Source: a virus. Taken from it: a DNA stretch of 33,974 bases. The stretch is from the IMG/VR virus record IMGVR_UViG_3300023184_002005, positions 1 through 33,974 of that record, one strand, 5' to 3'. Below the pieces are notes generated by a model that was not told the DNA's origin, searched no databases, and saw only the letters and a program-made list of their open reading frames with translations. Made by a program: the position numbers and the translations under genes. This document shows, piece after piece, positions 17,445 to 22,641 of the stretch; positions within the stretch are counted from its first letter, which is position 1, and each line of letters starts with the position of its first letter.

Positions 17445-17458
17445 ATAAGCCAGCTTAC
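17445..17458. promoter_or_regulatory. Operator 1 (14-bp dyad)
   Basis: ATAAGCCAGCTTAC fits the pattern xTAAG-N4-CTTAC shared by three sites in this intergenic region. It overlaps the leftward -10. It is a likely binding site of the Cro-like protein encoded at 17541. Confidence 0.65.
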
Positions 17459-17463
17459 ACACA

Positions 17464-17477
17464 TTAAGCCAACTTAC
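17464..17477. promoter_or_regulatory. Operator 2 (14-bp dyad)
   Basis: TTAAGCCAACTTAC has the same 5-4-5 dyad geometry as operator 1. Its centre is 19 bp from operator 1's, about two helical turns, which would favour cooperative binding. It covers the -35 zone of the leftward promoter. Confidence 0.65.
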
Positions 17478-17491
17478 ATTGCGAAATGCGT

Positions 17492-17505
17492 TAGGGCAAA
17501 CCCTA
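17492..17505. promoter_or_regulatory. Separate 14-bp dyad TAGGG-CAAA-CCCTA
   Basis: A perfect 5-4-5 inverted repeat with the same geometry as the three operators but a different half-site. It overlaps a possible -10 (TATGTT, 17504-17509). It may bind a second regulator, such as the winged-helix protein of the leftward operon, or form an RNA hairpin. Confidence 0.4.
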
Positions 17506-17517
17506 TGTTTGGTGTTC

Positions 17518-17531
17518 GTAAGTTAGCTTAC
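17518..17531. promoter_or_regulatory. Operator 3 (14-bp dyad) at the cro promoter
   Basis: GTAAGTTAGCTTAC is the most symmetric of the three sites (GTAAG/CTTAC). It overlaps a TACAAT hexamer (17529-17534) that could be the -10 of the rightward promoter, giving autoregulation of the Cro-like gene. No good -35 is visible upstream. If TACAAT is used, the transcript would begin at or next to the ATG. Confidence 0.6.
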
Positions 17532-17540
17532 AATCGCAGG

Positions 17541-17696
17541 ATGACCAAACAGGAACTTATTGACAAAGCAGGCTCACGCAAGGCGCTGGCTGAGTTGCTA
17601 GGCATCAGCCTGGCAGCTATCAGCCAATGGAAGAAAGTTCCCAGGGCGCGGTTGTGGCAAGCAAAAGATTTACGACCCGAATGGTTTAAGCCTTAA
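17541..17696 (+). CDS. Cro-like helix-turn-helix repressor
   Basis: 51 residues. RKALAELLGISLAAISQWKK (13-32) is a helix-turn-helix like that of P22 Cro and YdaS proteins, including the SQWKKV-P ending. Length and lack of a C-terminal domain fit Cro rather than CI. It should bind the three 14-bp dyads just upstream and switch both divergent early promoters. The ATG at 17541 is preceded only by a weak CAGG, and the possible -10 lies seven bases upstream, so a leaderless mRNA is conceivable. No CI-type partner is present. Confidence 0.8.
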   Translation: MTKQELIDKAGSRKALAELLGISLAAISQWKKVPRARLWQAKDLRPEWFKP

Positions 17697-17709
17697 ATTT
17701 ATGTACAAT
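17680..17709 (+). promoter_or_regulatory. Candidate promoter between cro and the structured region
   Basis: TACAAT at 17704-17709 preceded by TG could act as a -10. The -35 region (around TGGTTT, 17682-17687) is weak. A start near 17716 would coincide with the first base of a 7-bp hairpin, which is why I list it. Confidence 0.3.
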
Positions 17710-17715
17710 ACAACC

Positions 17716-17880
17716 CGTCTAGAGTGGCATCTAGGCGAAAGAGGTGGATCGTTGAACCCTACAGATATCTGTGCGGTCTTGTCAGACGACAAACGAACTT
17801 TTGATTCACCTCAATCGCTTGTTGTTGCTCTCGCCAAGAGCCAAGACCGCAGAGAGATTTGTAGGGTTTTTGCTTTTGGA
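17716..17880 (+). ncRNA. Structured RNA element after cro (candidate ncRNA, attenuator or antiterminator)
   Basis: Four stems can be read directly. P1: CGTCTAG 17716-17722 pairs with CTAGGCG 17731-17737. P2: 17755-17781 pairs with 17842-17868, 27 positions with two mismatches and one G-U, including unbroken runs of ten and nine pairs. P3: 17785-17796 pairs with 17815-17826, 12 positions with one mismatch. P4: GCTCT 17827-17831 pairs with AGAGC 17837-17841, stacking against P2. The apical loop of P3 contains CACCTC (17807-17812), which is complementary to GAGGTG at 17741-17746 and would make a pseudoknot. A T-rich TTTTTGCTTTT follows P2. Position after cro recalls lambda tR1 or HK022 put sites, but no known family is identified. 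Confidence 0.6.
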
Positions 17881-18120
17881 CAACGCAATGCGGTACGTCG
17901 GTGGTTGCGTTTGAGATACCCTGCTGCACGAGCAAGCCAAGGCAGGGAGCGTGGGCTAATACCTAGAGCGCGGTGGTTGAAACAGTCTGGGTTAGTGCGA
18001 TGCGATGACATGGCTCCGGAAAGCAAGTCACGGCACAGAGCGAACTTTGGTTATGACCACGGTAAGGCTGTGCTTTGCTCCAACATTCACCAAAAAGCAA
18101 ATGGAGAAGATGATGTTTGA
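17752..18120 (+). CDS. Uncertain ORF overlapping the structured RNA
   Basis: An open frame runs through this stretch. The best start is TTG 17752, five bases after GAGGTG. An ATG at 17701 also exists. The product, LNPTDICAVLSDDKRTF onward, is Arg-rich with no recognisable domain. It uses many AGA/AGG/CGA/GGG codons unlike its neighbours. In favour: an ordered ribosome site, 369 bases open, and its stop overlaps the next gene (ATGTTTGA). Against: the long inverted repeat and unusual codons. It may be a real gene whose leader regulates it, or a chance frame over RNA. Confidence 0.35.
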   Translation: MNPTDICAVLSDDKRTFDSPQSLVVALAKSQDRREICRVFAFGQRNAVRRWLRLRYPAARASQGRERGLIPRARWLKQSGLVRCDDMAPESKSRHRANFGYDHGKAVLCSNIHQKANGEDDV

Positions 18121-18478
18121 ATCAGGATTTGATAGGTTTTGGATTGCTTACCCTAAGACTCCCCGAAAGGGCGCAAAGTCTGAATGTCAAAAAAAATGGG
18201 TCAAGTTTTATTGTGAGACTCAGGCCGATCAAATTATCAAGCACATTGAATGGATGAAAACCACCGAACAATGGCTAAAAGCAAACGGCGCATTCATTCC
18301 CGCGCCCTTGGTCTACCTTAACCAACAACGCTGGGACGGGGCTGAAGTGCCCGAGATGCCTGATAAAAATCAGGTTGATTCTGCGCTGCAAAAGATTTTT
18401 GAGAATGACAAAAAAGCCGTGCCGATGCCTGATTACATTCGGAAACGGCTGAAAGAATTGCGTGGTCGCCGTGTATGA
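18113..18478 (+). CDS. Replication-protein C-terminal-like domain protein
   Basis: 121 residues. FDRFWIAYPKTPRKGAKSEC, then KKWVKFYCETQADQIIKHI, then FIPAPLVYLNQQRWDGAEVP, is the domain usually found at the C-terminus of phage primosomal or lambda O/DnaT-like replication proteins after a winged helix. Here it stands alone. The start at ATG 18113 is six bases after GGAG, with ATG 18110 as alternative. Placed downstream of cro like lambda O, it is the only replication-initiation candidate in the window. Confidence 0.65.
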   Translation: MFESGFDRFWIAYPKTPRKGAKSECQKKWVKFYCETQADQIIKHIEWMKTTEQWLKANGAFIPAPLVYLNQQRWDGAEVPEMPDKNQVDSALQKIFENDKKAVPMPDYIRKRLKELRGRRV

Positions 18479-20254: not shown

Positions 20255-20611
20255 ATGAAAAACAATGTCGCGGACTTTATTTCGACCATGCTGCACAGCG
20301 GCACGGTCACCCATTTCATGCATTTGGCGACCGATTCCTATGCAACGCACAAAGCATTGGGCAAGTATTACCCCGAAATCATTGAATTGACCGATGATTT
20401 TGCCGAGGCTTACGCTGGATGCTACGAAAAAATTAAGGAATACCCCGAAAACTTTCACAACGCCAAAGACCCGCAAAAGTACATGGCAAGCCTAAAAACT
20501 TACATTGAAAAGAATCGGGTGGCATTGCCGGAAGAATCCCAACTGCAAAACATCGTGGACGAAATCGCCGCGCTGGTGGACTCTACGATTTACAAGCTAA
20601 CCCTCAAATGA
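20255..20611 (+). CDS. DUF5856 (ferritin-like/Dps-like helical) protein
   Basis: 118 residues. The block VADFISTMLHSGTVTHFMHL, then SYATHKALGKYYPEIIEL, then DDFAEAYAGCYEKIKEY, has the regularly spaced His/Glu helices of DUF5856 phage proteins, which look like a miniature Dps/ferritin bundle. Function is unproven; metal binding or DNA protection is conceivable. AAAGGA precedes the ATG at five bases. Coupled by ATGA to the glycosyltransferase. Confidence 0.7.
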   Translation: MKNNVADFISTMLHSGTVTHFMHLATDSYATHKALGKYYPEIIELTDDFAEAYAGCYEKIKEYPENFHNAKDPQKYMASLKTYIEKNRVALPEESQLQNIVDEIAALVDSTIYKLTLK

Positions 20612-21291
20612 TCCGCATATTTGCAGGATACGACCCTCGGGAAGCCGTGGGCTACCATGTATTCTGCCAATCGGTCATAGAGCGCACCAAGGGGCTGGTC
20701 AGCATTACGCCACTATCCGGCAAGCAACGGGACGGCACAAACGCATTCACCTATCAGCGGTTTTTAGTCCCATTTCTATGCGGATACCAAGGTAAGGCTA
20801 TCTTTTTGGATGGCTCAGATATGCTTATGCTGGCAGACATTGAAGACCTAGAAAGCCTGTTCGACCCACGCTATGCCGTCCAGGTGGTCAAGCATGACTA
20901 TCAGACTAAGCACCCAAAGAAGTACATTGGCACACCGATGGAAGCCCGAAATGGCGACTACCCGAGGAAAAACTGGTCAAGCGTGGTACTGTGGAACTGC
21001 GAACATATCCGCAACAGGGTGCTGACACCGGAATTCATTGAGGAATCCACAGGCGAAGAACTGCACCGATTTCAGTGGTTGCCTGATTCACTCATTGGCG
21101 AATTGCCAAGGGAATGGAACGTGCTAGTAGGCGAACACGATCATTTGCGAACAAAGATTGCCCATTACACGCTAGGCATACCGGAATTTGACCATTACGC
21201 TAATTGCGACTACAGTAAACCTTGGTTCAACACACAGAGCCGGATGCTTAACGGCTTGATTCACATGAAGGACGCATATGCCGAGCACTAG
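20608..21291 (+). CDS. Glycosyltransferase (GT-A, GT8-like)
   Basis: 227 residues. MIRIFAGYDPREAVGYHVF is a GT-A N-terminal strand and loop. GKAIFLDGSDMLMLADIEDL (62-81) carries the D-x-x-D metal/nucleotide-sugar motif. KNWSSVVLWNCEH and HRFQWLPDSLIGELPREWN match phage and bacterial GT8-like enzymes. The target could be host O-antigen or phage DNA/virion. It is placed far from the DUF115 glycan block, among DNA genes. Confidence 0.8.
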   Translation: MIRIFAGYDPREAVGYHVFCQSVIERTKGLVSITPLSGKQRDGTNAFTYQRFLVPFLCGYQGKAIFLDGSDMLMLADIEDLESLFDPRYAVQVVKHDYQTKHPKKYIGTPMEARNGDYPRKNWSSVVLWNCEHIRNRVLTPEFIEESTGEELHRFQWLPDSLIGELPREWNVLVGEHDHLRTKIAHYTLGIPEFDHYANCDYSKPWFNTQSRMLNGLIHMKDAYAEH

Positions 21292-21427
21292 CAGCAAACA
21301 AGCCAAATTCATGGCAGCCGCCGCCCACAACCCTAAATTTGCAAAAATGGCAGGCATTCCGGTAAAGGTAGCCAAGGAATTCAACAAGGCTGACCAAGCC
21401 AAAAAAGCGCCGCCGAAGAAGAAATGA
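21278..21427 (+). CDS. Small basic protein (49 aa)
   Basis: MPSTSSKQAKFMAAAAHNPK continues to a Lys-rich tail KKAPPKKK. The K-Q-A-K-F-M-A-A-A-A-H-N-P opening recurs as a small stand-alone protein in many environmental phages. It overlaps the glycosyltransferase by 14 bases and the methylase by four. DNA-associated role inferred from basic charge only. Confidence 0.7.
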   Translation: MPSTSSKQAKFMAAAAHNPKFAKMAGIPVKVAKEFNKADQAKKAPPKKK

Positions 21428-22641
21428 AAATTACACAAAAAAAGGTTGACAGCCTTATTCCTTATGTAAAAAACAGCCGCACCCATTCGGACGCACAAGT
21501 AGCGCAGATCGCGGCAAGCATCAAGGAATTTGGTTGGACAAACCCTATTTTGGTGGACGGGGATAACGGCATCATTGCGGGCCACGGGCGGCTCATGGCG
21601 GCGCGTAAGCTAGGTTATAAGGAAGTGCCAACTATTGAACTGGCAGACTTAACCGAGACGCAAAAGCGGGCTTACATCATTGCCGACAACCGCTTGGCGC
21701 TAAATGCAGGCTGGGACAATGAGATGCTGACCATTGAGTTAAACGATTTGTTGGCAGACGGCTTTGCGCTGGAACTGCTGGGGTTTGACCCAAAAGAATT
21801 AAACGCATTGCTTGAGTCGGAAGTAGTGCATGGCTTAACCGATGAAGATGCCGTGCCTGATGTGCCGGAAGAGCCTAAGACCAAGCTGGGCGATATTTAC
21901 CAATTGGGCAACCACCGGCTAATGTGTGGGGACAGCACCAGCATAGACGCTGTGGACAAGCTAATGCCTAATGAATTGGCAGATTTGGTTTTCACCGACC
22001 CTCCATACAATGTTGCATATAGTGGGCGAGGTGAAAACAATTTAGGCACAATCAAAAATGATGACATGACAGATGACCAATTTGAAGATTTTTGTCGTGC
22101 ATTTTTTGGGTGTTATTTTGCAAAAATGAAATCTTTAGCTTGCATTTATGTATGTCATCCTGATAGCCAATCTGCGCCCAAACTAGCATTTGAAAAAACA
22201 TTTGCCGAACAATTCAAAAAATCTAGCACTTTGATTTGGATGAAACAATCGGCTGGCATGGGCTGGCAAGATTACAGGGCGCAACATGAGCCAATCCTTT
22301 ATGGATGGAAGCCAGGCACAGGCAAGCATTTCTATTGCGGCGACAGGGCTAAAACAACGATTTGGAAAATTGGTAGGGACGCTCAAGCAAAATATGTGCA
22401 TCCGACTCAAAAACCCGTTGCATTGCCTGAGGAAGCTATAAATAACAGCAGCAAAGGGCAAGATATTGTGCTTGACTTGTTTGGTGGCTCGGGAAGTACG
22501 CTAATTGCTTGCGAAAAGCATAGTAGATATGCCCGTGTAATGGAGTTAGACCCTAAATATTGCGATGTGATCGTAAAGCGTTGGGAAGACTTCACAGGCA
22601 AGACGGCTGTGTTATTGTCCGAGAATGTTCAGCCAGCTTAA
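21424..22641 (+). CDS. ParB-like domain fused to DNA adenine/N4-cytosine methyltransferase
   Basis: 405 residues. Residues 1-95 are a ParB/Srx-type domain: LIPYVKNSRTHSDAQVAQIA, then GIIAGHGRLMAARKLGYKEVP. Residues 155-400 are a beta-class methylase with TDPPYNVAYSG (191-201, catalytic DPPY), YVHPTQKPVALPEEAI, and LDLFGGSGSTLIACE (350-364, SAM site). No restriction partner is present. Such orphan fusions probably methylate phage DNA against host restriction or mark it for packaging. It sits directly before the terminase genes. Confidence 0.88.
   Translation: MKITQKKVDSLIPYVKNSRTHSDAQVAQIAASIKEFGWTNPILVDGDNGIIAGHGRLMAARKLGYKEVPTIELADLTETQKRAYIIADNRLALNAGWDNEMLTIELNDLLADGFALELLGFDPKELNALLESEVVHGLTDEDAVPDVPEEPKTKLGDIYQLGNHRLMCGDSTSIDAVDKLMPNELADLVFTDPPYNVAYSGRGENNLGTIKNDDMTDDQFEDFCRAFFGCYFAKMKSLACIYVCHPDSQSAPKLAFEKTFAEQFKKSSTLIWMKQSAGMGWQDYRAQHEPILYGWKPGTGKHFYCGDRAKTTIWKIGRDAQAKYVHPTQKPVALPEEAINNSSKGQDIVLDLFGGSGSTLIACEKHSRYARVMELDPKYCDVIVKRWEDFTGKTAVLLSENVQPA

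Follow-up and report, generated by a model that had tools for sequence, protein, structure and literature searches.

A modular family of structured RNAs with interchangeable 5′ and 3′ domains in uncultivated phages

The window (the whole stretch of viral DNA analysed here, 33,974 nucleotides) carries a structured RNA of a kind that we could not assign to any known family. In particular, comparison with relatives shows positions 17716–18092 of the plus strand to correspond to a structured RNA that has a putative promoter of its own and consists of a 5′ domain (17716–17879) and, after it, a separate 3′ domain (17880–18092); the RNA totals ~390 bases and ends 17 nt upstream of the start codon of a replication gene. 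Well over 100 contigs of uncultivated phages carry RNAs of this type. They make up a predicted family that is previously undescribed, and both the family itself and its modular build are new. We consider it nearly certain that the observed fold is real and that it is the fold of an RNA. The function of this RNA is inferred, not shown; the best mechanism we can offer, to which we assign a probability of roughly 0.4, is that of a leader acting in cis to control the elongation of transcription, either as an attenuator or as an RNA antiterminator. The features of the region, together with the evidence for each, are as follows.

17541–17696, plus strand: upstream cro-like gene (P22_Cro, Pfam E = 1.6e-9)
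17704–17709, plus strand: −10 box TACAAT of the RNA's own putative promoter (TATAAT-like box across relatives)
17716–17737, plus strand: P1, the 5′ hairpin, CGUCUAGA-GUGGCA-UCUAGGCG (pairing in 99.3% of cells; two-sided changes in 6 of 8 pairs)
17725–17728, plus strand: P1 loop UGGC, predicted to kiss 17833–17836 (invariant save in one phage)
17741–17750, plus strand: J1/2 pseudoknot strand GAGGUGGAUC, predicted to pair with 17803–17812
17755–17781, plus strand: 5′ strand of P2, the long stem (fold and covariation)
17785–17796, plus strand: 5′ strand of P3 (main P3 helix, change on both sides in 6 of 8 pairs)
17803–17812, plus strand: pseudoknot strand GAUUCACCUC in the P3 apical loop (native versus swapped pairing)
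17815–17826, plus strand: 3′ strand of P3 (covariation)
17827–17841, plus strand: P4 hairpin GCUCU-CGCCA-AGAGC, whose GCCA (17833–17836) is predicted to kiss the P1 loop (covariation, loop variant)
17842–17868, plus strand: 3′ strand of P2 (fold and covariation)
17869–17879, plus strand: terminator-like T-rich tract UUUGCUUUUGG directly 3′ of P2 (present in every 5′ type examined)
17880–18092, plus strand: class A 3′ domain, multi-pseudoknotted, with an invariant CACCA end at 18088–18092 (covariation)
17883–17889 with 17904–17910, plus strand: hairpin Pa (two-sided changes in 6 of 7 pairs)
17919–17924 with 17942–17947, plus strand: helix Pb (covariation)
17936–17938 with 17972–17974, plus strand: Pb-loop pseudoknot of 3 bp (covariation)
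17949–17952 with 17968–17971, plus strand: helix Pc (covariation)
17961–17967 with 17986–17992, plus strand: helix Pd, which crosses Pc (covariation)
18033–18037 with 18071–18075, plus strand: tentative sixth helix (only 69.6% of cells paired, alignment uncertain)
18103–18478, plus strand: Shine-Dalgarno GGAG and O-like replication gene with its start at 18110 (phrog_9474, E = 6.6e-15)

A first-pass annotation of the window had proposed an undescribed structured RNA directly after cro, and this proposal is borne out by strong covariation, by the absence of a matching Rfam family and by the lack of any coding signal in the ORF that spans the RNA. The 27-position arms of P2 pair exactly where that annotation had drawn them, interrupted by two 1 × 1 mismatches, and the nested stem, the 5-bp hairpin now called P4 and the T-rich tract after P2 likewise lie where it had put them. 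The separate 5′ hairpin that it had called is present, with 8 bp and not 7. Its secondary stems were sound, whereas the pseudoknot and the kissing loops had escaped it, and the extent that it gave (17716–17880) was too short, leaving out both the −10 box and the second structured domain.

The predicted minimum free energy of the segment first annotated is −70 kcal/mol, versus −44.9 ± 4.0 for shuffled sequences (z = −6.2; 0 of 200 shuffles), and the minus strand folds more poorly (z = −4.9); we rejected an RNA on the minus strand, for which both the fold and the model score were weaker than for the plus strand. Among copies of the 5′ domain, G-U cells outnumber A-C cells by 464 to 63, and we therefore infer that selection acts on the plus-strand transcript and that the plus strand is the RNA.

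Covariation supports the structure of the 5′ domain. For an alignment of 96 distinct copies (A1), and a model comprising P1–P4, the kissing loop and the pseudoknot, 93.4% of cells were paired, two-sided changes were found in 31 of 63 pairs, and the covariation score was 0.240 as against 0.124 in shuffles (0 of 500), a signal that was abolished by sliding the partners by 1–3 columns. Only one copy departs from the pairing of UGGC in the P1 loop with GCCA in the P4 loop; in that phage (L129/L271), which provides the sole P4-loop variant in two scans, ACCA faces a matching UGGU. The pseudoknot between the P1–P2 linker and the P3 loop is hypervariable, with 91 distinct helices in 116 unique copies, and has a mean native run of 11.2 nt compared with 6.9 nt when partners are swapped between phages. 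(We also considered the pseudoknot strand as a targeting guide and rejected this idea, as matches to the phage's own genome were no clearer than those of strands from other phages.) Phylogeny is incompletely modelled in our E-values and shuffles; the swapped-partner tests and sliding controls nevertheless agree. Compensatory changes in homologous phage regions and a scan against Rfam were the checks that the first-pass annotation had suggested, and it had held that arms changing without compensation alongside a conserved protein would refute the RNA. The structure proved to be conserved and covarying, the scan matched no family, and the refuting case did not arise.

The long stem and what follows it fulfil the pattern of an intrinsic terminator, P2 being followed by TTTTTGCTTTT, and this pattern is kept across unrelated 5′ types; a simple terminator scanner misses it because such a scanner limits loops to 3–8 nt. 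The T-rich tract may pair with 18091–18101, at the 3′ end in class A, a contact that is suggestive only (native 7.1, swapped 6.8).

The class A 3′ domain was the only 3′ domain subjected to covariation tests. With the tentative sixth helix included, 92% of cells were paired under its model and two-sided changes were found in 19 of 32 pairs, with a covariation score of 0.411 as against 0.173 in shuffles (0 of 500). Helix Pc contributes two of the three top-ranked covarying pairs and has standard pairing in all 82 sequences.

The two domains are not bound to each other. Of 214 distinct upstream regions, 133 are of the type found in the window (type I) and 81 are of other types, some of which were badly cut out and were excluded when types were counted. 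Behind the same type I 5′ domain we found at least five unrelated structured 3′ domains, namely class A (that of the window, 90 copies), class B (32 copies), class C (10 copies), classes D and E, and singletons; conversely, class A and class B 3′ domains also occur behind other 5′ domains. Altogether, at least seven 5′ types and five 3′ classes have been recombined. The type I covariance model (R1) recognises type IV (E = 2e-14) and, weakly, type VI (E = 0.002; L093 and L127, respectively), and all types inspected follow a common plan of promoter, 5′ hairpin, long stem, T-rich tract and 3′ domain, with the loop of the long stem pairing back to the 5′ hairpin or the linker in every 5′ type examined. 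This plan was quantified for types I and II and read only by eye for types III, V, VI and VII; in type II, the P1 loop and the stem loop are complementary over 6.3 bp, versus 3.9 bp when swapped, through ~15 different helices. By these comparisons the RNAs constitute a widespread family assembled from interchangeable front and back parts, and its copies carry many invariant unpaired residues. At four loci that adjoin terminase small subunit or HNH genes (L068, L070, L071 and L404), the class A 3′ domain stands behind a type III 5′ domain, and there the 3′ strand of the 5′ hairpin is also complementary to the stem loop, which suggests mutually exclusive folds. Class C loci (L175, L179 and L180) have a ~400-nt 3′ domain with many stable hairpins.

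The separability of the domains bears on whether the 5′ domain alone might be a small RNA (~165 nt) with its end at the T-rich tract, and with the 3′ domain serving as a separate leader of the next gene. A promoter, a compact fold and the stem/T-rich tract in every 5′ type examined are what such an RNA would need. However, although the domains recombine, a 5′ domain of this kind precedes the 3′ domains in the copies that we inspected, and the possible pairing of the class A T-rich tract with the 3′ end would also speak against it; we regard this explanation as doubtful.

A protein-level scan with the spanning ORF returned 72 loci, in many of which DNA identity exceeded protein identity, with ~400 conserved bases (17701–18100), and a motif scan of viral contigs returned at least 120 matches. 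Among 84,980 prokaryote species the motif scan picked out a single contig, L270, whose match to the model was weak and partial and which we take to be due to chance, and the version of the RNA found in the window had no match among GenBank phages and plasmids. For the window and its relatives nothing in Rfam 15 scored above the gathering cut-off except tRNAs in L303, and a permissive Rfam scan of 17650–18150 gave chance matches only. We found no description of the RNA in the open-access literature (subscription papers and most preprints were outside our scope), nor interchangeable RNA domains described in any RNA family that we searched.

The spanning ORF (17701–18120, 139 aa) is open in the window, and it could in principle be a protein-coding gene of which the fold is a by-product. 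We give this next to no credence and ruled the ORF out as a gene: at least 90% of the length of the frame is kept in only 5 of 52 homologues, substitutions fall evenly on the three codon positions (1083/1088/1006), and the ATG sits just upstream of the −10 box. A related question arises for the GenBank record MW202484.1, the complete genome of a podovirus from Manatee Spring, which was matched by a type II/class B query and carries a copy of that kind. Here the RNA lies at 33.5–33.9 kb (L272 3395–3790), downstream and not upstream of an O homologue, and a protein (UOF77725.1) has been annotated over its class B domain; this protein is probably not a gene as drawn. Read from its sequence, the MW202484.1 copy has a promoter-like site, a P1 loop GUAACGG opposite CCGUUAC, a stem and a T-rich tract, and since this copy was used in no model it provides an independent check of the blueprint.

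The position between cro and an O-like gene, which the first-pass annotation had likened to that of lambda tR1, is correct for the window; the RNA is nevertheless not bound to that position, because elsewhere it is found after O, after terL or before terS. An O-like gene is near the RNA in 104 of 147 distinct copies, many with a cro-like gene upstream, while about a dozen copies instead follow the gene for the large terminase subunit, and in one case (L172) the RNA precedes the gene for the small subunit. Proximity to the O-like gene is what a replication primer RNA or an origin structure, the latter among the four functions guessed earlier, would predict. Yet the copies beside terminase genes and after O, together with the excess of G-U over A-C cells, which points to selection at the level of the transcript, render this explanation very improbable, and likewise disfavour a cruciform or origin acting at the level of DNA. 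In the nine genomes that we mapped, the RNA heads a long late-gene block in six and lies deeper inside the block, after the terminase genes, in three; none of the nine showed it on the strand that does not carry the late genes. With R1, exactly one copy was found in each of 31 records out of 38, and the copy in G031 seems to run across the contig ends. We found no tyrosine integrase in 36 of these records, which makes a role in immunity or lysogeny less likely.

Elsewhere in the window we observed three near-palindromic TAAG-YNAR-CTTAC sites between divergent genes (17446–17533), which are likely operators of the cro/repressor switch; a small protein downstream of the RNA (20255–20611), similar-looking to one directly after the RNA in L053, L054 and L063; an N6/N4 DNA methyltransferase with a fused ParB-like domain at its N terminus (21424–22641); and genes that by eye resemble glycosyltransferases or sugar-related transferases (1–2370 and 20608–21291).

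The putative promoter is a shared feature of the family. Among 135 distinct upstream regions TATAAT is matched at 6/6 positions in 90 and at 5/6 in 34, with 6/6 matches in 12 of 675 regions of shuffled letters, and the −10 box is usually 7 nt from P1; the expected start site is about 17716, at the foot of P1. The −35 element of the window is poor, and a simple promoter scan found no match there. In L008, L127, L133 and L118 a perfect palindrome of 6–7 bp (for example ACGCACA-n7-TGTGCGT), possibly an operator, lies between −35 and −10; such cases are scattered, and we rejected the palindrome as a general feature. At the other end of the RNA, class A copies are followed by a start codon with a Shine-Dalgarno sequence in 82 of 85 cases (median ~21 nt past the RNA), and a terminator occurs in the gap in only 1 of 85. 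Class B copies have a T-rich tract 3′ of the 3′ domain in 56 of 76 cases (background 5.6%), with one more hairpin element between this tract and the gene. At class B loci such as L387 and L392, the interval between the RNA and the gene start contains a second hairpin that is conserved (GGATAG-n-CTATCC, with CACCCTTGGAGAACCTATG after it); the TCCACC core is present in 72 of 76. The 5′ hairpin stands where transcription is expected to begin, and the start codon follows the RNA closely; the RNA could thus merely protect the mRNA from decay with its 5′ hairpin and enhance translation with its 3′ domain at the ribosome binding site. We think this unlikely, as it leaves unexplained why the stem/T-rich tract is kept in every type and why the conserved loops are so elaborate.

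These observations raise the possibility of action in cis, with the RNA serving as leader to the operon that it heads. In particular, the 5′ domain would fold into a closed body as it emerges and decide whether polymerase stops at the stem/T-rich tract or continues, perhaps by modifying polymerase in the manner of put RNA. The interchangeable 3′ domain would provide a second control beside the ribosome binding site, and the phage may use the whole for the timing or licensing of downstream gene expression. We infer control of elongation in cis because the 5′ hairpin contacts the stem/T-rich tract in every type and because the RNA occupies a leader position near the operon head. Against this stand the weak −35 element of the window, the size of a 390-nt two-domain leader, which is large for an attenuator, and the absence of transcript data.

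Moreover, a promoter of its own and contexts before or after O, after terL and before terS would fit a free-standing RNA gene, and a free RNA could end at the T-rich tract that follows the 3′ domain in most class B copies. A gene for a trans-acting noncoding RNA is nearly as likely as a cis-acting leader because the unit has its own promoter and changes places: it would be a mobile cassette, its neighbouring genes incidental, that produces an abundant stable RNA or RNP acting on the host or on phage development. The swapping of 5′ and 3′ domains and the many invariant unpaired residues also favour it. However, class A copies lead straight to a ribosome binding site without a terminator, and no mapped genome has the RNA opposite the late-gene strand.

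Elongation control by a leader has a precedent in the put RNA of phage HK022, which mediates antitermination in the early operon with no need of a protein partner, binding the β′ zinc-binding domain and suppressing termination (PMC9378689). putL lies directly after its promoter, and put is ~70 nt long with two stem-loops and no mention of a pseudoknot (PMC9378689). The RNA of the window resembles put in standing directly downstream of a promoter, with the −10 box a few fixed bases before P1 (a likeness that we know from sequence only), and in having stem-loops that would fold as the RNA emerges, and put is the nearest functional model, although the RNA of the window does not belong to it. It differs in its length (~390 nt, ~165 nt for a 5′ domain with both a kissing loop and a pseudoknot), in its built-in stem/T-rich tract and in its exchangeable second domain.

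In ornateness, the nearest RNAs are GOLLD and ROOL, large phage RNAs of unknown function that have kissing loops and pseudoknots and are often near tRNA islands; GOLLD, one half of which is conserved and the other less so, often exceeds 800 nt (PMC12286853). Unlike these, the RNA described here matches no Rfam model and is a putative leader inside or heading an operon. GOLLD, ROOL and phi29 pRNA are free RNAs. In the pT181 repC attenuator leader, an upstream hairpin interacts with a terminator hairpin before a replication gene; by contrast, we identified no antisense RNA or promoter for one in the window, the partner strands belong to one molecule, and the gene that follows often has a role other than replication. 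The C4 antisense RNA of P1/P7 and the CI RNA of P4 are short, structured RNAs that phages produce from leader transcripts, and from these the RNA of the window differs in the lack of an Rfam match and in the lesser likelihood of an immunity role noted above.

A more far-reaching form of the cis-acting leader is that these RNAs, as a superfamily with kissing-loop 5′ controllers of at least seven types and at least five unrelated structured 3′ effectors, are RNA-only processive antiterminators that replace N/Q-type protein switches for the main operon of uncultivated phages. We offer this only as a speculative and rather unlikely proposal; the Q antiterminator families used in our Q-loss test also miss the annotated Q of MW202481.1.

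To our knowledge, large structured phage RNAs are rare and most have no known function, put being the single well-studied RNA-based transcription switch. The RNA described here stands out in being common, in its unusually clear covariation, which extends to tertiary contacts, and in its interchangeable domains, and it may be mistaken for a small protein, as in MW202484.1. If the RNA does act in cis, its mechanism would amount to a variation on leader control as already known. Once its role is solved, the RNA would represent either a new RNA-based transcription switch beside put or a new trans-acting phage RNA.
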